Source: Bacillota bacterium (GTDB lineage: Bacteria > Bacillota > Syntrophomonadia > Syntrophomonadales > Syntrophomonadaceae). Taken from it: a DNA stretch of 35,141 nt. How positions within the stretch are numbered: the stretch's first letter is position 1; the number at the start of each line of letters is the position of its first letter. Under the pieces are notes generated by a model. It was not told where the DNA came from and searched no databases. It saw nothing but the letters and a program-made list of their open reading frames with translations. The position numbers and the translations under genes were made by a program. Below, in pieces: positions 6,359 through 27,706 of the stretch. The DNA is taken from the NCBI GenBank assembly GCA_029550685.1, contig JAKPGY010000220.1:1-35141 (forward strand), read 5' to 3'.

Positions 6359-6490
6359 CCTATGAACCTATCGTTGTCCGCTAATAGTGTGCCCGGAAAG
6401 AATGCTTATCTATAAAAGAATCATTTATTGTGTTTTAAGAACCGTTCACTTTACAATTATAGTGACATAATACGATAGGCGGGTTATGCA

Positions 6491-8452: not shown

Positions 8453-8530
8453 TGGTCGGAGTGACTGGATTTGAACCAGCGGCCTCTACGTCCCCAACGT
8501 AGCGCTCATACCAAACTGAGCTACACCCCG
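8453..8530 (-). tRNA. tRNA-Pro (anticodon GGG)
   Basis: Read on the minus strand, an acceptor arm CGGGGTG pairs with CACTCCG, followed by an A discriminator and an encoded CCA. The D arm begins TAGCTCAG. The anticodon stem CTACG/CGTAG encloses the loop TTGGGGA, giving anticodon GGG (codon CCC). The T arm contains GTTCAAATC. It has all arms of a normal cloverleaf and is 78 nt long including CCA. Confidence 0.93.
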
Positions 8531-18945: not shown

Positions 18946-19665
18946 TCAACTTCTCATGCGCTTCTTTATCTCTCTAAGATGACGGCGGCTCAATGGAATC
19001 CGCTCCCCTGAACGCAATACTATATCGTAGGTTTTTCCGAAGCGGTCAATCATGGTTATATAATCGATATTGACCAAATAGCTGCGGTGGCAGCGAAAAA
19101 AGCCTTTATTGGTCAAGGTTTCCTCCAATGACTCTAAACTTTGGTAGATCACCAGATCATCATAGAATGGAGATTTTATCACTGTTTTATGGTCCAAGCT
19201 CTCAATATAAGAAATTTCTTTGGATTTAAGTATTATTTGTCGCCCTTCTACCTTACACATGACTAAATCATCTTCAAATGAACCAGGCTGGCTAAACCCA
19301 GACTTTATTCTTTGCATGGTCTTTACAATGCGCTCTTCATTAAAGGGCTTCAATATGTAATCAAAAGGATAGACATCAAAGGCTTCCAAAGCATGATCCG
19401 GGTAGGCGGTGGCAAATACCAAGTATAAGTCTTCATCTTTTTCCCGTAGTTGCCGTGCCAAATCCAAGCCATTCAAACCAGGCATATCTATATCCAGAAA
19501 AATTACTTGGGCCCTATGACGGTCAACTTGCTGAGCAACCTCCAGGGAGTTGGTAATTACTTCAGCTACTTCTACTCCCGGCACTCGTTCCAAAATCGAC
19601 TTTAAGAATAGTCCTACCGCCAACTCATCGTCCACAACCAGTACCTTAACGATATCTGTATCCAT
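18946..19665 (-). CDS. agrA: LytTR-family response regulator (AgrA-like)
   Basis: A 239-aa two-domain regulator. The receiver domain (7-122) has acidic residues D12/D13, phospho-acceptor D58 (VIFLDIDMPG) and K106 (YILKPF). The LytTR DNA-binding domain (about 135-235) has the family blocks ISYIES, FFRCHRSYLVNIDYI and IPLSRRHL. It should be phosphorylated by the AgrC-like kinase encoded in the same operon and bind paired direct repeats spaced by two helical turns. Such pairs occur at 14271, 15882, 16903 and 21777. AGGAGG lies 8 nt before the ATG. The gene is 13 nt after agrB. Confidence 0.93.
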   Translation of the reverse strand: MDTDIVKVLVVDDELAVGLFLKSILERVPGVEVAEVITNSLEVAQQVDRHRAQVIFLDIDMPGLNGLDLARQLREKDEDLYLVFATAYPDHALEAFDVYPFDYILKPFNEERIVKTMQRIKSGFSQPGSFEDDLVMCKVEGRQIILKSKEISYIESLDHKTVIKSPFYDDLVIYQSLESLEETLTNKGFFRCHRSYLVNIDYITMIDRFGKTYDIVLRSGERIPLSRRHLREIKKRMRS

Positions 19666-19678
19666 GACTGTACCTCCT

Positions 19679-20302
19679 TTAATCGAAGGCCAGTACCCTA
19701 TCTACCCAGTGCAAAAACCGGTAACCCAGGGGAGTTACTGTAAAAACCTGAGCCAGCATCCCCACTGCTACCGGCAAGCAAATCCACTGAGCAGCCTTTG
19801 TTTGAGTAGTTCCGATCATAATGATCAAGTAGACCACTGCTAAAATTAACGATAGGCGTTTGAATTTGGTGCGTTCAGCATCAGTATTGATGGGTTTGTT
19901 TTCTGTGTCGCCCGGTGCATACAAAGCCAACAAAACAAATGCAGCAGCAAAGGAGATACCTGCTATTACCAGTAAGCTTTCCACGGTTATAGACATATTC
20001 ACATATCGAACTATCCACCCCAGCAATAAAAACCAGATGGTACCCCCGATCATACACCGGTAGTATTCATTGCAGTGCTCACCACCGGAAACCAAACGCA
20101 GCATACTAGCTGATACCGTAATAATAATGACCTCTCGCCAAAGGCCCATGATTTCGGCTAAAGAGAGCAGAACTATCCACTTTACGATTTCTCCTAACAG
20201 CAGTTCCAGACCGTATGCCATCCGATTCTGTTCCCTTTGGTCGCTGCCCAGTTCTTTAGCCAAAGCTGCCGCCCAACGAACCGCAATGTTATGAATACTC
20301 AT
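19679..20302 (-). CDS. agrB: AgrB-like peptide-processing membrane protease
   Basis: A 207-aa polytopic membrane protein. The active-site pair of AgrB cysteine proteases is present in LRLVSGGEHCNEYYRC: H76 and C83, seven residues apart as in S. aureus AgrB (H77, C84). There are five to six hydrophobic helices. It cuts the AgrD precursor and closes the thiolactone ring. ATG at 20302 is preferred because it overlaps the agrC TGA (ATGA). An ATG two codons earlier is too near the AGGAG. Its peptide substrate is not encoded next to it but 3.6 kb away at 15980. Confidence 0.92.
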   Translation of the reverse strand: MSIHNIAVRWAAALAKELGSDQREQNRMAYGLELLLGEIVKWIVLLSLAEIMGLWREVIIITVSASMLRLVSGGEHCNEYYRCMIGGTIWFLLLGWIVRYVNMSITVESLLVIAGISFAAAFVLLALYAPGDTENKPINTDAERTKFKRLSLILAVVYLIIMIGTTQTKAAQWICLPVAVGMLAQVFTVTPLGYRFLHWVDRVLAFD

Positions 20303-21648
20303 GCCCATCTTCTCCTTTCCTTCAGTTTAGGATAGTACACCGTAAAGCAAGTGCCTTCTTCAGGATTGCTGCTCACTGCTATTCTCCCCTTGTACTTTTC
20401 TACCAGGTACTTCACAGAGGCCAAGCCAATCCCCCTTTCGCCGCTATCGCTCTTGGTTGAAAAACCAGGTTCGAACAAACGATCATAAACACCCTCGGAA
20501 ATGATACCGGAATTGTGAACTTGGATAACATAAAATCCAGGTTCGGCAAAAATGTGGAGCTTTACTTCCCGATCGGTTGGTTCCCTATTCTCAACAGCTT
20601 CCATAGCATTATTGATTAAATTTCCTACCACAGCCACTAAATCCAGCGGCGACACCCTTGTGGCAGACAAAGTGGTTTCGATGTCTATACTTAAAGAAAT
20701 ACCCTTTCCGGCAGCAGCACCTGTTTTCACCAGCAACAAAGCGCTGAGTTCAGGAACGCCTAATTGCATAATATCTCCGCTGATTTGCACATCCCTATAT
20801 AGTTTCCTGATATAGTCCAGAGCTTTGTCTATCTCATTGAGGTTCAAGAACCCATATACTACTTGTATGTGATTGATAAAATCATGTCTCTGCCCTTTTA
20901 TCACCTGCATCATTTCCTGTAAGTTTTCGATATGTAGCTGCTGAGCTTGCATTAACCGGTATTGCTTGTGCAGGAAACCTAATTTTTGAACCAGTAATAA
21001 TGATAGAGTTATCAAAGCAAAAACCACAAAATATATGGTATTACTCATAAATAGGGCTGAAGGAGGCTGTAGCTGATTGAAGTTATTCTCATAATAAAAG
21101 CCCAAGGCAATTAGAATAACAGCAAAAAGCAGCAACATCCCTATCTCGCTTTTCCATACCACGGGTGCTAACTGCATGTAATGCTCTTGGGTCCAGGAAA
21201 CTACTGGAGTACGATATCTGTTTATGAGCAGTATCGTCAAAACCAGAATTAAAAACTGGGGCAGCGGAAAGATGATTCTCAACCAGGGATCATTTAAAAC
21301 CTGCCATATAGAAATGCCAGTAACTGCGGTAATCAAGGCATTACAGACTACTTCAATAAAGCTTAGTAATATTAAACCACTTATACTTGCCAGGACAGCT
21401 TTGTAGACTGGTATCTGAGCCAAAGAACTTAACAGCAGGATCAAGATAAGTAATTGAACTATTATATTTATTCCTGCAGGAATAGAAGATGAACGAATAA
21501 TGTAACTGGCTAAAGCAGTTAACAAGGCAACAACCAAAACTCTTTTCCAATCAGCCTTTAACCCGATTAATCCTAAACCCAAATAGATCAAGATTACTGT
21601 TTCGGGAAATGAGTGAATAAGCACAAGGTAAAAGGGCATTGTTTCCAT
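20299..21648 (-). CDS. agrC: AgrC-like sensor histidine kinase
   Basis: A 449-aa protein. The N-terminal half (to about 225) has six to seven transmembrane helices that would bind the cyclic peptide. The cytoplasmic part has the H-box KGQRHDFINHIQ (phospho-acceptor H255), typical of the AgrC/HPK10 class, followed by an HATPase domain with the N-box VGNLINNAMEA (340-350) and G-box GERGIGLASV. It is first gene of the operon agrC-agrB-agrA, an order unlike the usual agrBDCA. GGAAGG stands 9 nt before the ATG. Confidence 0.93.
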   Translation of the reverse strand: METMPFYLVLIHSFPETVILIYLGLGLIGLKADWKRVLVVALLTALASYIIRSSSIPAGINIIVQLLILILLLSSLAQIPVYKAVLASISGLILLSFIEVVCNALITAVTGISIWQVLNDPWLRIIFPLPQFLILVLTILLINRYRTPVVSWTQEHYMQLAPVVWKSEIGMLLLFAVILIALGFYYENNFNQLQPPSALFMSNTIYFVVFALITLSLLLVQKLGFLHKQYRLMQAQQLHIENLQEMMQVIKGQRHDFINHIQVVYGFLNLNEIDKALDYIRKLYRDVQISGDIMQLGVPELSALLLVKTGAAAGKGISLSIDIETTLSATRVSPLDLVAVVGNLINNAMEAVENREPTDREVKLHIFAEPGFYVIQVHNSGIISEGVYDRLFEPGFSTKSDSGERGIGLASVKYLVEKYKGRIAVSSNPEEGTCFTVYYPKLKERRRWA

Positions 21649-22100: not shown

Positions 22101-22159
22101 AGAAAACAAAAGGGGGTGGTCTCCTGTTGGAAAAACAAATCAGGAAAGACAACCACCCC
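22101..22159 (-). terminator. Terminator of the five-gene RuBisCO-like cluster
   Basis: On the minus strand GGGGTGGT pairs with ACCACCCC (inner CCTG/CAGG pairing is possible), followed by TTTTGTTTTCTCTTT. It lies 20 nt past the last gene of the cluster. Confidence 0.8.
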
Positions 22160-22179: not shown

Positions 22180-23019
22180 CTATTTCATATTCACTTTAAT
22201 ATTCTTATATTCTTTAGTAATAGCAATCACGGCCTGTTCGGTGGGCATGCGTTCTCCACTGGAACCGGAAGCATAGCCGTCGGCATCGGAGTGAGCTACT
22301 GAGTACTGGGCAGTGGCTGCATCAGCAAAAGGTCCTCCGTGGGTTAGTACGAAAACCTCTGGATTTACATCGCGGGCTGCCAGACATATTACCTGTACCT
22401 CCTCGGTGGCCTTCTCCAAGGTCATTACCTCTTTTGCTCCCGTTAATCCACCGCTGGTCACACCCACTATGGCACCAATCACATCAGCACCGGCCTCTGC
22501 CATGATTCTGGCTTCTTCAGCATTGAAAGCCCAAGCTACTGTGAAGATATCTTTGTGGTGAGCAGTTCTGATAAGTTCCGCTTCCCGGGAGAAGCCAATT
22601 CCCGCAGCCTCCAATTGTTTGGCAAAGAATTCCCCATACAGTCCGCAAAAGGGCTCATTGGTAATACCGGAAAAACCCAAAACCATCATCTCATCGATGA
22701 TCTGTTCCAGGTCTACCGCAGGGTTATGGGCACCTATTCCAGCAATACAGGGTGCGGTTTTAACTACCGGTATTATTTCCCGGGCCATTTCTTTCACACA
22801 AGTATTGCAGTCTTCATAGGGCATCCAGGCCAAGAGAGTGGGGAGCCCCATCATGCGAAATTTGGCTGTGGAATAAACCGCTACCAGATCAGCGCCGCCC
22901 AAATCAGCACATTTGGCCGTTAAACCGGTTCCAGCACCAAACATTAGTATGGCCCGGTTTTGTTTGACTTGCTCACGCAGTCGGGATAATATTTCCCTGC
23001 GCTTATACTGTATAGCCAT
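22180..23019 (-). CDS. TIM-barrel 'phosphoenolpyruvate hydrolase-like' protein, paralogue 1
   Basis: A 279-aa protein of the TIM-barrel signal-transduction / PEP-hydrolase-like family, homologous to the C-terminal domain of the plant Tm-1 protein. Visible family blocks are MFGAGTGLTAK, AWMPYEDCN, APCIAGIG, LGFSGITNEPFCGLYGEFFAKQLEAAGIGFSREAE, FTVAWAFNAEEA, VGVTSGGLTG, LTHGGPFADA and the end SSGERMPTE. The biochemical function of the bacterial family is unsettled. It is the last gene of a five-gene run, 23 nt after the UPF0261 gene. A second, diverged paralogue lies at 25235. Confidence 0.88.
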   Translation of the reverse strand: MAIQYKRREILSRLREQVKQNRAILMFGAGTGLTAKCADLGGADLVAVYSTAKFRMMGLPTLLAWMPYEDCNTCVKEMAREIIPVVKTAPCIAGIGAHNPAVDLEQIIDEMMVLGFSGITNEPFCGLYGEFFAKQLEAAGIGFSREAELIRTAHHKDIFTVAWAFNAEEARIMAEAGADVIGAIVGVTSGGLTGAKEVMTLEKATEEVQVICLAARDVNPEVFVLTHGGPFADAATAQYSVAHSDADGYASGSSGERMPTEQAVIAITKEYKNIKVNMK

Positions 23020-23042
23020 GGTCTGCCTCCCAACACATTCTC

Positions 23043-24380
23043 TTAAAAAGGTATTACAAAGGGTAGATCAGCCTTGTTGCCTTTCCTCCATTTGCCATCC
23101 AGCATTTCTAACAACAGTTCCGCCATCAATTCAGCAAACTCAGGCTCATTCATGTGTTTGTCTACCAGAATGACTTCCAGGTTATCTTTATTGGGATCAA
23201 TAGTAGCTTTCAGAGCCTTCACATACTCTACCGATCGTTTTGACCAGTTAGGATTTTCTTCATCAGCAGCCCATACCGGTCCTGGTCCAGGTCCAGCCCA
23301 GCCCAGCTCGATATCCGGTGAGGCCAGGTCGCAGGCTCCCCACCCCCGCATAGGCACGCATAATACACTAGGGCCTTTGGCAGCATTGAGTTTCTTGGCC
23401 ATATGTTCGCCTATTCTATAGGCCTCCTCCATGGAAACGCCAATACAGGTAACAGTGGGATTGTGTTCATACAGGCCGCGCCCGGGCTGGTCGGTCTCCT
23501 TTAGCAATCGTTCCGGCACAGTATGTTTAGGGCCGAAATTGATCAAGTCAAGTCCTCCGGGGGCTACCACCTGGGGAATACCCATATCCCCAGCAGCCGT
23601 CATACGGTCAGGACCGGCACTTAGTACGCCTCCCAGCATTTCATCGCCTATTTCATGAGTAGTGATATCAAGAATTCCAGCGATATAGCCATCCCGGATC
23701 AACTCTTCCATGGAACGGCCCCCACTGCCTACCGCGTGGTTAATCATGACATCGTAACCGGCTTTCTCCACGATTGAGGAAGCGTGCAGTACACAGGGTG
23801 TAGTTACTCCAAACATCATGCAGCCAATCAGGGGCTTTTCCTCTATTCCTTCCATGTCCGGAGGGGAAGCCATTCCCACGACCGCTGCAGCAGCATTATT
23901 GAGTATCTGGCGGGTTACTTTGTTTAGTCCGGCTTCGGCGATAGGATATATCATGCAAATATCCCGGGTACCAACATAAGGTGATACATCTCCTGACGCC
24001 ATGGTGGTCAGCATAACTTTAGGAAATCCAATGGGCAGTGACTGCATAATGCGGGTAGCAATACTGGCACCCATGGAGCCGCCATAAGCTATAATGCCAT
24101 CTGCCTCTCCTCTTTCCCGCATCTCATTGACCAGTTTTATGGCTCCCTCGGCAATTAAATCAGAGGCACCCTTTCGGTCTAAAGCAAAAATGTCTTCCGT
24201 TTTCCTGCCAACCATGCTGACAACCTTGCTCAAGCTGATGTCAGCCCATCCTACTTCATGTCCCACACTCAGTTCCAATATGACCGGCTCACCGCCGGCT
24301 GCTTTAACCCTTTGGTTTAGAAACTTGATCTCTTCGCCTTTGGTATCAAGAATTCCCGCAACTATAATCTTTTTTGCCAT
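23043..24380 (-). CDS. UPF0261 / Tm-1 N-terminal-type ATP-binding protein
   Basis: A 445-aa protein. It shows the UPF0261 hallmarks: a start like KIIVAGILDTKGEEIKFL, YGGSMGASIATRIM (nucleotide-binding loop in the Tm-1 structure), TTMASGDVSPYVGTRDI, MMFGVTTPCV, TTHEIGDEMLGGVLSAGPDR, PQVVAPGGLDLINF and a C-terminal VPMRGWGACD...GPVW. In plants this domain is fused in front of the TIM-barrel domain that here is a separate gene 23 nt downstream. No enzyme activity is established for the family. AGGAGGG precedes the ATG by about 6 nt. It is 18 nt downstream of comB. Confidence 0.9.
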   Translation of the reverse strand: MAKKIIVAGILDTKGEEIKFLNQRVKAAGGEPVILELSVGHEVGWADISLSKVVSMVGRKTEDIFALDRKGASDLIAEGAIKLVNEMRERGEADGIIAYGGSMGASIATRIMQSLPIGFPKVMLTTMASGDVSPYVGTRDICMIYPIAEAGLNKVTRQILNNAAAAVVGMASPPDMEGIEEKPLIGCMMFGVTTPCVLHASSIVEKAGYDVMINHAVGSGGRSMEELIRDGYIAGILDITTHEIGDEMLGGVLSAGPDRMTAAGDMGIPQVVAPGGLDLINFGPKHTVPERLLKETDQPGRGLYEHNPTVTCIGVSMEEAYRIGEHMAKKLNAAKGPSVLCVPMRGWGACDLASPDIELGWAGPGPGPVWAADEENPNWSKRSVEYVKALKATIDPNKDNLEVILVDKHMNEPEFAELMAELLLEMLDGKWRKGNKADLPFVIPF

Positions 24381-24398
24381 GCTCTTCCCTCCTGTTGT

Positions 24399-25163
24399 TT
24401 ACTTTCGTTCCTCCCAGGTGACAAACCATATTAAGTCGTCTTCTGCCTGCAGGTAAGGAACTACCTGAGAAGTATTGTATTCAAGGCACACATCAAAATC
24501 CTCATAGCCTCCAGTTCCCAGCAATACTTTGCCGCTGGCCGATTCCATAAAGGCTGTCCGGGCATTCGGGTAAGCTTTAACCACTGCCTTGGCAGCCTGG
24601 CATGCGTCAGACTCTTTTAGTTCGATACCAAGTTGGCCCGCCTGTTTTTCCATCTCTTGCAGCAAATAGCCGGCACAGTAAGCATCATCAAGAACAAATT
24701 TTCCGTACTGGCCTGCACATACAATGGTTATCCCGCAGGAAGCACTTAGTGCTGTTGATAAAGCAGCTTGAACACAAGCCTGGGCATTCATTAGGCTGGC
24801 AATAAACAGCCGTACACAGTTTTTTACCTGGTGGATAACCCGGGTACCGTTACTGGTACATAGCACCACATCTCGGTCCTTAACCGGATAGCTCCTGGCT
24901 TCAGCGGGCGAGTTATCCAAATCAAAACCCGGTAATTTGATGCCCTGCCATTCACCGCTGGTAAGCATCTTTCCTTCAGCCCCCAGCTGCCGCGCCTTTT
25001 CCTCCTCAGCAACGGTATACACACGACGGCAACCGTTATCCAGAAGGGAAACAATGGTGCTGCTGGCTCTGATAACATCAATTACCATACAAACAGTGTT
25101 GTTCGCCTCCGGACTATAGTCCCGCACAGACAAAGCTGTATCCACTTCGATGATTGTTGCCAT
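24399..25163 (-). CDS. comB: ComB-family phosphatase (2-phosphosulfolactate phosphatase-like)
   Basis: A 254-aa protein of the Mg-dependent ComB acid phosphatase family, which in coenzyme M synthesis removes phosphate from 2-phosphosulfolactate. Family blocks are CMVIDVIRASSTIVSLLDNG, LDNSPAEA, VVLCTSNGTRVI, ITIVCAGQYGKFVLDDAYCAGYLL and the C-terminal VVPYLQAEDDLIWFV. Nothing else of coenzyme M synthesis is in the window. Given the neighbouring RuBisCO-like gene, it may act on a different phosphorylated ketose- or enol-type substrate. GTG at 25181 is an alternative start; ATG 25163 was chosen for its spacing from GGTGA. A strong hairpin lies between this gene and the one upstream. Confidence 0.85.
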   Translation of the reverse strand: MATIIEVDTALSVRDYSPEANNTVCMVIDVIRASSTIVSLLDNGCRRVYTVAEEEKARQLGAEGKMLTSGEWQGIKLPGFDLDNSPAEARSYPVKDRDVVLCTSNGTRVIHQVKNCVRLFIASLMNAQACVQAALSTALSASCGITIVCAGQYGKFVLDDAYCAGYLLQEMEKQAGQLGIELKESDACQAAKAVVKAYPNARTAFMESASGKVLLGTGGYEDFDVCLEYNTSQVVPYLQAEDDLIWFVTWEERK

Positions 25164-25191
25164 TTTTTCACCATTTCCCACTGCTTAATTA

Positions 25192-25227
25192 AAGCTCTCC
25201 CGGTTGTTCACACAACAGGGAGAGCTT
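25192..25227 (-). terminator. Intercistronic hairpin before comB
   Basis: AAGCTCTCCC pairs with GGGAGAGCTT, and the loop folds further (GTTGT/ACAAC). On the minus strand only TTTAATT follows, so it may terminate partially or act as an mRNA-stability or processing element inside the operon. Confidence 0.6.
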
Positions 25228-25234
25228 AAAAGTC

Positions 25235-26083
25235 TTATTTCTTCCCCAGAGGAATATTCTTAAATTGCTGACAAGCTTCTTTGAGGGGTACCTCGATAGG
25301 AATGCGTTCAATACTGGAAGCACCTAGGAAGCCAACCGATTCAGTATTTTCGTATATATAACGGGTATCTTCCGGGTAGGCTATGGGGCCACCGTGGGAG
25401 AATATCATAATATCTTTGTAACCTTCACGAGCCGCCTGGGTCATCTCATTAATGAGGACAGCCGATTTTTCCAGGGTGAGCTTTTCTTCTGCAAACTTGG
25501 ACCCAATCGAACCACCGGCAGTTAGACCCATATGACATATTAAAACATCCAGTTGGGCTTTACCAACTAAACGGGCTTCCTCCACATTAAAAGCATACCC
25601 CAGGGTAAAGAACCCTAATTCCTTAGCAATTTTAAGGGTTTCAATTTCCACCGAATATCCCATACCGGTGTCTTCAAGTTCCTGACGGAATCTGCCATCA
25701 ATGAGACCGACGGTGGGGAAATTCATAACAGCTGAAAATCCCAGATGCTGTAGATGCTGGAGATAGGGGCGCATTTCTCTGGTGGGATCAGTGCCGCATA
25801 TACCAGCAATCATGGGAGTTTCTTTGATCACCGGGAACACGCGATGAGCCAAATCGATTACTATTTGGTTGGCATCACCATATGGCATCAGACCTGCCAG
25901 AGAACCTTTTCCATCCATACGGAAAAGCCCTGAATTGTAGACCCCGATCAGGTCTACTCCTCCCTGCTCGGCGAACTTACCAGAGATACCGGTGCCAGCA
26001 CCAGCAATTATGATGGGTTTGCCCGCCTGAATTTGCTGCTGGAGCCTAGCCTTGACTTCTTCACGAGTGTACTGTTTGGCCAT
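25235..26083 (-). CDS. TIM-barrel 'phosphoenolpyruvate hydrolase-like' protein, paralogue 2
   Basis: A 282-aa member of the same family as 22180-23019. Matching blocks are IAGAGTGISGKFAEQGG, GLMPYGDAN, TPMIAGICGTDP, LGFSAVMNFPTVGLIDGRF, GYSVEIE, FTLGYAFNVEEA, MGLTAGGS, FSHGGPIAYPEDT and ASSIERIP. By eye the two copies share these motifs but clearly less than half of all residues, so they are old paralogues with probably different ligands. AAGGAGG lies 9 nt before the ATG at 26083; the longer frame upstream is not used. It follows the RuBisCO-like gene by 19 nt. Confidence 0.9.
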   Translation of the reverse strand: MAKQYTREEVKARLQQQIQAGKPIIIAGAGTGISGKFAEQGGVDLIGVYNSGLFRMDGKGSLAGLMPYGDANQIVIDLAHRVFPVIKETPMIAGICGTDPTREMRPYLQHLQHLGFSAVMNFPTVGLIDGRFRQELEDTGMGYSVEIETLKIAKELGFFTLGYAFNVEEARLVGKAQLDVLICHMGLTAGGSIGSKFAEEKLTLEKSAVLINEMTQAAREGYKDIMIFSHGGPIAYPEDTRYIYENTESVGFLGASSIERIPIEVPLKEACQQFKNIPLGKK

Positions 26084-26102
26084 AAAGCATACCTCCTTAA
26101 AT

Positions 26103-27419
26103 TTATCCCTTAATGTCAAAAAGGCCATTCTCTTCTTCTTCCAGGAGTCCCCAGGCATCTACTGCTGCTTGTAATTCGGGATGTTCTTTAGCGGCTTCCA
26201 GCAAAGGAATCCCTTGGACAGCTGCGTCTATTACTTGCCGCATAGCTCTGGCACCCGCTACCGGTCCCATGGGATGACCATGTATAGCTCCGCCACAGCC
26301 CATAATGCTGTCCGGACCCAAGTCACGATATATGGCATGCACGCAGTTGGGCATTACACCACCGCCGGGCATGGGGAAAACCCGCTTAATGTCACACCAG
26401 GGATTATTAAGGTGGTGTCCTATTTCTAAATAGCGTTCCCGCAAAAGAGGGAACTTCCCATAGGGGCTGGGATAGACCACCATATCTGCACCAGCCATAC
26501 GGGCTAGCTTGCCTAAAATTAAATGAGAACTCATACCGGAAATGGGGGATTCATACATGGTTCCAGCAAAATCCAGATGAGCCATAATAGGAACATTTAT
26601 ATCAGGATGTTCAGCCAGGCCTTGCAATGCTGAAATACCCACGGTAAGGTAATTAATCATGATAGCGTTGGCACCAGCATCAATGGCTCGCCGGGCGTTG
26701 TCCAGTACGTTTAAGGCTCCGTCAGTAATATTAGGGGTATACAAAACCTTATGTCCGGTCTCCTCATAGTGCCGCCGGATTACATCCATATACAGCTTGA
26801 TACGCTGGTCGCGGGGATTAAAAGGGGGGTCGGCTATCAGCTCATCATCCTTAACTATATCTACTCCGCCTTCTACGGCCAGGGAAAACAGGCGACAGCC
26901 TACTTCAGGGGTATATCCGGTGCAAGGCTTAATCATATTGTTCAGTAATGGCCGATCGTATACTCCCAGCAGTTCCCGAACACCTTCTACACCAAATTTG
27001 GGTCCTTTGAATTGGGCTAAAAATTTAGGTGGGAATTTGATATCCAACAGTTTTAGGGGACCTACCATAGAAATGTTACCGATTATGGTAGATAACATCA
27101 TGGGTATTTGGGGCCCGAAATTCACTGCCGGATAGGCTAACTGAAACACCCACTGGCGGGTATCCTGTCCCCCGGGCACTTCATATTCATTGCCAGGTAC
27201 TTCATAGATACTTACAACTTTAGCCACATGTTTTTCCCGTACTTCAGGAGTCTCTTCCGGAACAGGCACCCAAGTGCCGGTGGTCTGCTCAATGGCAATG
27301 GAACTAATCTTTTTCACGATGTCGACGTTACGACCGGTCTGTAGATAATAGGTTGCAATTACGTAATCCCCAGTCGCTTCGGCTTGTTCTGGTATAACTA
27401 ACATATCTATTTCTGCCAA
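26103..27419 (-). CDS. RuBisCO-like protein (form IV)
   Basis: A 438-aa member of the RuBisCO large-subunit superfamily. The Mg/carbamate set is intact: K190, D192, E193 in GGVDIVKDDE (K201, D203, E204 of spinach RuBisCO). K164 in MIKP (K175), H281 in MAHLD (H294), N115 (N123), E44 (E60), K322 (loop 6) and the phosphate loop GCGGAIHGHPMG (374-385) are also kept. Carboxylase residues are changed: K177 is C166, R295 is L282 and S379 is Gly. It should therefore enolise or isomerise a phosphorylated sugar-like compound rather than fix CO2. TTG is used as start after AAGGAG. First gene of the cluster. Confidence 0.93.
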   Translation of the reverse strand: MAEIDMLVIPEQAEATGDYVIATYYLQTGRNVDIVKKISSIAIEQTTGTWVPVPEETPEVREKHVAKVVSIYEVPGNEYEVPGGQDTRQWVFQLAYPAVNFGPQIPMMLSTIIGNISMVGPLKLLDIKFPPKFLAQFKGPKFGVEGVRELLGVYDRPLLNNMIKPCTGYTPEVGCRLFSLAVEGGVDIVKDDELIADPPFNPRDQRIKLYMDVIRRHYEETGHKVLYTPNITDGALNVLDNARRAIDAGANAIMINYLTVGISALQGLAEHPDINVPIMAHLDFAGTMYESPISGMSSHLILGKLARMAGADMVVYPSPYGKFPLLRERYLEIGHHLNNPWCDIKRVFPMPGGGVMPNCVHAIYRDLGPDSIMGCGGAIHGHPMGPVAGARAMRQVIDAAVQGIPLLEAAKEHPELQAAVDAWGLLEEEENGLFDIKG

Positions 27420-27674: not shown

Positions 27675-27706
27675 GAACCGTTTTCAGGTCTTCCTGAAAA
27701 CGGTTC
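27675..27706 (-). terminator. Terminator of spoIVA
   Basis: A perfect 14-bp stem GAACCGTTTTCAGG / CCTGAAAACGGTTC with a 4-nt loop, followed on the minus strand by TTTTGT, 20 nt past the spoIVA stop. Confidence 0.9.

Follow-up and report, generated by a model that had tools for sequence, protein, structure and literature searches.

What does a RuBisCO-like protein (RLP) do when its gene shares a strand with genes for two TIM barrels, a ComB-type phosphatase and a UPF0261 protein? The question is raised by contig JAKPGY010000220.1 (C81) of the 2.9-Mb assembly GCA_029550685.1, from a Bacillota bacterium of the Syntrophomonadaceae whose relatives are Syntrophomonas metagenome-assembled genomes (MAGs). 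The whole contig, 35,141 nucleotides (nt), is called the window here. We find that the five genes form a conserved, operon-like set, in which the RLP belongs to a clade of its own with its own active-site signature and is accompanied by its own partner subfamilies. We are highly confident that this set is a conserved module that does not serve methionine salvage. Open reading frames (ORFs) and domain searches confirm the one-strand, five-gene layout, with gaps of 18-71 nt:

26103-27419, minus strand: RLP, 438 amino acids, TTG start; IKPC(T/S)G signature, uncharacterised clade (Pfam and NCBIfam domains, trees, residue comparison)
25235-26083, minus strand: TIM1, a PF09370 'phosphoenolpyruvate (PEP) hydrolase-like' TIM barrel, 282 amino acids; ATG at 26083 with AAGGAGG upstream
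24399-25163, minus strand: ComB-family (PF04029) phosphatase-like protein (domain search); GTG at 25181 is a possible alternative start
23043-24380, minus strand: UPF0261/Tm-1-like protein, 445 amino acids, probable ATP-dependent kinase (domains, structure match)
22180-23019, minus strand: TIM2, a second, divergent PF09370 TIM barrel, 279 amino acids (domain search, tree)

Comparison of neighbourhoods, the check suggested by the sequence-only reading, bears out the cluster as a conserved unit. L numbers denote loci. A scan of genome contigs with an RLP alignment gave 80 RLP loci; a sample of 398 genomes of the phylum and one of 63 genomes of the order were also used. The order RLP-TIM1-ComB-UPF0261-TIM2 is kept in about 18 loci from Syntrophomonadaceae and other Clostridia, namely some 16 of the 80 scanned loci (L039-L060, a range in which L047 and L057 lack ComB) plus L208, a putative Thermacetogenium phaeum locus, and L214 in the phylum sample. 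Nine further Clostridia loci, including Candidatus Formimonas warabiya and a Desulfoscipio MAG, have RLP-TIM1-UPF0261-TIM2 without ComB. The synteny spans two RLP subclades, and a Caldisericota MAG (L061) holds the same families in a third arrangement. Since the order is conserved across relatives whose RLPs share 52-95% identity, it is not a product of chance. Flanking genes vary between genera, and the set therefore stays together in different chromosomal locations. UPF0261 occurs in all 15 genomes of the order that have this RLP, against two of the 48 others (Fisher p about 1e-12), and by coordinate comparison adjoins a RuBisCO-family gene in about 18 of the 398 phylum genomes. To explain its linkage to the RLP, the IQ-TREE RLP tree requires five or more changes; the linkage has therefore been repeatedly gained or lost. 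A search of a literature library found no paper linking these families together. As a separate observation, stop codons break the RLP of one locus (L058:10001-11294, or G013:C3:297947-299240) in which TIM1, ComB, UPF0261 and TIM2 remain open; its near relative L045 is intact.

The RLP is a member of the RuBisCO superfamily by its Pfam domains and by Lys175, Lys201, Asp203, Glu204 and His294 (RuBisCO positions), and a family search of this genome, which was examined one family at a time, returned no second RuBisCO-family gene. Trees were built with FastTree (88 clade sequences) and with IQ-TREE using the Shimodaira-Hasegawa-like approximate likelihood-ratio test (SH-aLRT); a plasmid RLP with mtnK and mtnA as neighbours served to anchor the DeepYkr clade, and annotated plasmid genes the OiaX clade. 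The window RLP falls in a clade (the KPC clade) with members from Bacillota, Thermodesulfobacteriota, Chloroflexota, Spirochaetota, Theionarchaea and Thorarchaeota, which stands apart from the MtnW, DeepYkr and OiaX clades (SH-aLRT 100 each, IQ-TREE), the basal rows L087, L114 and L117 not being firmly placed in that tree. It had been asked whether the RLP would fall among enzymes of known reaction; it lies outside every such clade anchored in our trees. Cysteine occupies position 177 in 88 of 88 clade members, which retain Lys175, Lys201, Asp203, Glu204, His294 and Asn123 and have lost Arg295, His298 and His327. Lys334 is found in 82 of 83 main-clade RLPs, with Glu60 likewise retained, and the two are lost together on the L146-157 branch. 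Position 334 is Lys in RuBisCO and the OiaX-like clade, Ser or Thr in MtnW (which also has Gly60 and Lys123) and Arg in DeepYkr (which also has His204). From this residue pattern across clades, together with the known functions, we infer that Lys334 may mark carboxyl chemistry.

Three other assignments were rejected. RuBisCO forms I-III do not fit, Lys177, Arg295, His327 and Ser379 being Cys, Leu, Val and Gly here. The DeepYkr methylthioribulose-1-phosphate isomerases form a separate clade, and their replacement of Glu204 by His is not seen. OiaX/OiaT also form a separate clade, and the NF042437 score is 200 bits against a cut-off of 700.

The sequence-only reading had likened the set to methionine salvage, with the RLP as MtnW and ComB standing in for MtnX. 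The likeness to the Bacillus pathway lies in the RLP fold and in a phosphatase within the operon. A variant of methionine or 5'-deoxyadenosine salvage, in which the RLP would be a 2,3-diketo-5-methylthiopentyl-1-phosphate enolase-like enzyme and ComB would take the place of MtnX, can also draw on the closest solved structures to the RLP, which are of MtnW, on a score of 395 bits with an MtnW model (PRK09549.1) whose cut-off is 409, and on the presence in this genome of mtnA (C45:5922-6908) with a class II aldolase gene next to it (C45:5317-5844). Several lines of evidence weigh against it. The RLP lies outside the MtnW clade that holds the B. subtilis and G. kaustophilus enzymes (SH-aLRT 100); the second curated model, TIGR03332, is also missed, at 347 of 514 bits; and the MtnW residue signature is absent, Ser334 being Lys here and position 123 being Asn in all 88 clade members as against Lys in 12 of 12 MtnW-clade rows. 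Imker et al. 2007 reportedly identified this Lys123 as the general base of MtnW. Of the 63 genomes of the order, 58 carry mtnA and 58 a class II aldolase, whether or not they have the RLP, which is present in few; being almost universal irrespective of the RLP, and not physically linked to it, mtnA speaks against a salvage role. ComB is dispensable to the module, being missing from the Formimonas- and Desulfoscipio-type clusters, and it belongs to another phosphatase family than MtnX. It carries the PF04029 domain of the 2-phosphosulfolactate phosphatases and scores 143 bits against the 175-bit cut-off of their equivalog model, TIGR00298. No mtn genes stand in the operon, and a salvage pathway offers no role to UPF0261 or the TIM barrels. 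We therefore regard a salvage variant as quite improbable.

Evidence for a single module comes from the partners too. UPF0261, TIM1 and TIM2 have diverged together, as subfamilies that occur almost exclusively with this RLP. TIM1 and TIM2 score 361 and 313 bits against the PF09370 cut-off of 33.8, and each forms a clade (support 1.0 and 0.996) apart from the canonical PF09370 proteins linked to Tm-1, a plant virus-resistance protein. A Foldseek search with TIM1 returned 2P10, of the same family, and beyond that generic TIM barrels. The RLP-linked UPF0261 proteins form one clade (support 0.986) with a second lineage in L217-L219; one main-clade member, L192/L215 (G334), has no RLP nearby. UPF0261-PF09370 pairs are commonly adjacent in rhizobia, fungi and plants and are fused in plants (PMC5028733). 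The window shares these two families with such Tm-1-like pairs and differs in its RLP-specific subfamilies, its two TIM-barrel paralogues and the addition of RLP and ComB.

An indication of chemistry comes from UPF0261, which, like the TIM barrels, had earlier been left without a settled role. It carries PF06792 and UPF0261_C domains, has Tm-1 and PDB 9MPY as homologues, and finds its best structure match in the latter, which is Saro_1862 of Novosphingobium aromaticivorans with acetovanillone bound (about 33% identity). A 2026 paper (PMC13101465) refers to MarK as the single-component kinase with which N. aromaticivorans begins to break down acetovanillone. Saro_1862 is probably MarK, and the window UPF0261 is probably an ATP-dependent kinase. 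Outside its own family, the UPF0261 model gave only weak Foldseek matches to UDP-N-acetylglucosamine 2-epimerase-like proteins (template-modelling score 0.33 or below), and none of the matches listed connected it with four-carbon acid sugar kinases. The acetovanillone pathways Hpe, Acv and MarK, as set out in PMC9618137 and PMC13101465, resemble the window in running from a kinase (MarK, probably a UPF0261 protein) through C-C chemistry on a phosphorylated ketone to a phosphatase; they differ in using a biotin-dependent carboxylase on an aromatic substrate where the window has an RLP. It is very unlikely, though conceivable, that the set forms a kinase-RLP-phosphatase route with the RLP as carboxylase or transcarboxylase of a transiently phosphorylated ketone or acid, the RuBisCO fold doing the work of the biotin-dependent carboxylase of Hpe/Acv.

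We propose, tentatively, a catabolic module whose chain of steps, taken as a whole, we consider somewhat more likely wrong than right. With ATP as donor, UPF0261 would phosphorylate a small oxo-acid or ketose at an enolic or other acidic hydroxyl. The RLP would bind the phosphorylated carbonyl compound through Mg and carbamylated Lys201 and convert it to an enediolate, and Glu60 and Lys334, closing loop 6, would allow a carboxyl group to be removed or moved, a decarboxylation or transcarboxylation like those of OiaX/OiaT. The two PF09370 barrels may then cleave a C-C bond of the RLP product or hydrolyse it, and ComB, where present, may remove the phosphate. PMC6302742, citing Carter et al. 2018, describes D-apionate pathways in which the RLPs OiaX and OiaT are a decarboxylase and a transcarboxylase-hydrolase. 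With these the window RLP shares Lys175, Lys201, Asp203, Glu204 and Lys334; it differs in its clade and profile score and in the loss of Arg295 and His327, and in its surroundings UPF0261 replaces the four-carbon acid sugar kinase and PF09370 proteins are added. Of the undescribed catabolic or salvage route for a phosphorylated compound that had been suggested, the conserved unit and an RLP beyond the anchored clades stand, and the analogy with methionine salvage falls.

Relatives offer some hints about the products. The remote loci L218/L219 hold genes for a sugar ATP-binding cassette transporter, an acyl-homoserine lactone (AHL) lactonase-like protein, UPF0261, RLP, a class II aldolase and RpiB-like and triose-phosphate isomerase (TPI)-like proteins (families checked on L218). 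UPF0261 lies between the lactonase-like gene and the RLP, where the acid-sugar kinase would stand. These two loci share AHL-lactonase-like and erythrulose-phosphate isomerase-like genes with the apionate route. L216 has TPI, TIM, UPF0261, amidohydrolase and RLP genes with RpiB-, transaldolase- and transketolase-like genes, the last three judged from the start of each sequence. A PF04309 (GlpP-like) gene stands directly upstream of the RLP in L050, L052, L055, L056, L057 and L208 (domain checked on L050, L057 and L208, other loci assigned by clustering) and elsewhere on the contig in L053. Some 150-250 nt before the RLP, nine loci, most with the GlpP-like gene upstream, carry a leader in which GGGAC-AGAGANGAGAGTRA-GTCCC overlaps a terminator hairpin, TCCCACCTT...AAGGGTGGGA-TTTT (L050 at 6376-6393, L051, L052, L054, L055, L056, L208, L214 and, as a variant, L057). 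Its arms appear to differ together between loci in an alignment read by eye, and the leader looks antiterminator-like, of the antiterminator/terminator type; an Rfam search of the L050 leader matched no family. The GlpP-type gene, this leader and the erythrulose-, triose- and pentose-phosphate isomerase-type genes of remote relatives together point to putative products of about three to five carbons.

Several points weigh against the proposed chain. The equation of MarK with Saro_1862 is itself an inference. A motif search did not find the leader in the window, and the window cluster has neither transporter nor isomerase genes. L217-L219, with their lactonase and isomerase genes, have lost Lys334 and Glu60 and may therefore do other chemistry. 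UPF0261 and the TIM barrels are missing around most RLPs of the KPC clade (Deltaproteobacteria, Thorarchaeota, Propionispira), whose neighbours are FGGY kinases, a glutamate-1-semialdehyde-aminomutase-like enzyme or a galactitol-type phosphotransferase system (PTS), so the RLP reaction may be more general, for example an isomerisation. The RLP would then be a ketose-phosphate isomerase or epimerase without carboxyl chemistry, supplied with its phosphoketose by the kinase or PTS of other clusters and by UPF0261 here, and the TIM barrels and ComB would act downstream. Many KPC-clade RLPs do have FGGY pentulose kinase, galactitol-type PTS, zinc alcohol dehydrogenase or class II aldolase genes nearby, and the related DeepYkr RLP is a 1,3-isomerase (PMC5893883); however, Lys334, which this clade keeps together with Glu60, is gone from the RLPs known to be isomerases (DeepYkr) or enolases (MtnW). 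We judge an isomerase unlikely, while giving it appreciable weight.

The remaining features concern the boundaries and internal structure of the cluster:

27675-27706, minus strand: terminator after spoIVA, the upstream boundary (terminator scan and folding)
25192-25227, minus strand: very stable hairpin in the TIM1-ComB gap (-25 kcal/mol, z -6.35)
22113-22159, minus strand: terminator-like hairpin with T-rich tail, the operon end (folding z -2.3)

The last of these confirms that a terminator bounds the cluster; a simple terminator scan missed it, probably owing to its larger loop. From RLP to TIM2 the gaps, calculated from the coordinates, are 19, 53 (71 with the ComB ATG), 18 and 23 nt. Relatives share the N-terminus xSELDMLVIPE, which makes the TTG start of the RLP plausible; the TIM1 start given by the ORF tool, 26158, would overlap the RLP. 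The hairpin between TIM1 and ComB has no strong T run. Most near relatives have a predicted hairpin at this place too, though its sequence varies, and it may thus serve for attenuation or processing. It could also be enlisted, with the several ComB-less clusters and the UPF0261-PF09370 pairs known without an RLP, for a reading in which RLP-TIM1 and UPF0261-TIM2 are independent functional pairs that are neighbours by chance, with ComB a passenger. TIM1, UPF0261 and TIM2 are, however, all RLP-specific subfamilies that stay together across chromosomal locations, and we think separate pairs improbable.

The functions of RLPs are a standing question in RuBisCO evolution. For UPF0261 and PF09370 no biochemical role has, to our knowledge, been agreed, even though a fused form (Tm-1) exists in plants. 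The operon places three families of which little is understood in a single pathway that can be tested, putatively present in the cultured and fully sequenced Thermacetogenium phaeum, and since the RLP clade occurs in archaea and many anaerobes its reaction may be widespread.

Within L088-L118, many Syntrophaceae and other Deltaproteobacteria show the succession FGGY kinase, glutamate-1-semialdehyde-aminomutase-like gene, RLP and then the c7 family, which has no Pfam or NCBIfam match. The Thorarchaeota RLP genes of the KPC clade in L079, L080, L086 and L099 lie in divergent orientation beside formate-tetrahydrofolate ligase and methylene-tetrahydrofolate dehydrogenase genes (domains checked on L099). 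In the window itself, ORFs beside the cluster (18946-21648) resemble by eye an agr quorum-sensing-like group, with a LytTR-type response regulator, an AgrB-like protein and a sensor-kinase-like protein, and a tRNA gene lies at 8456-8530 on the minus strand.

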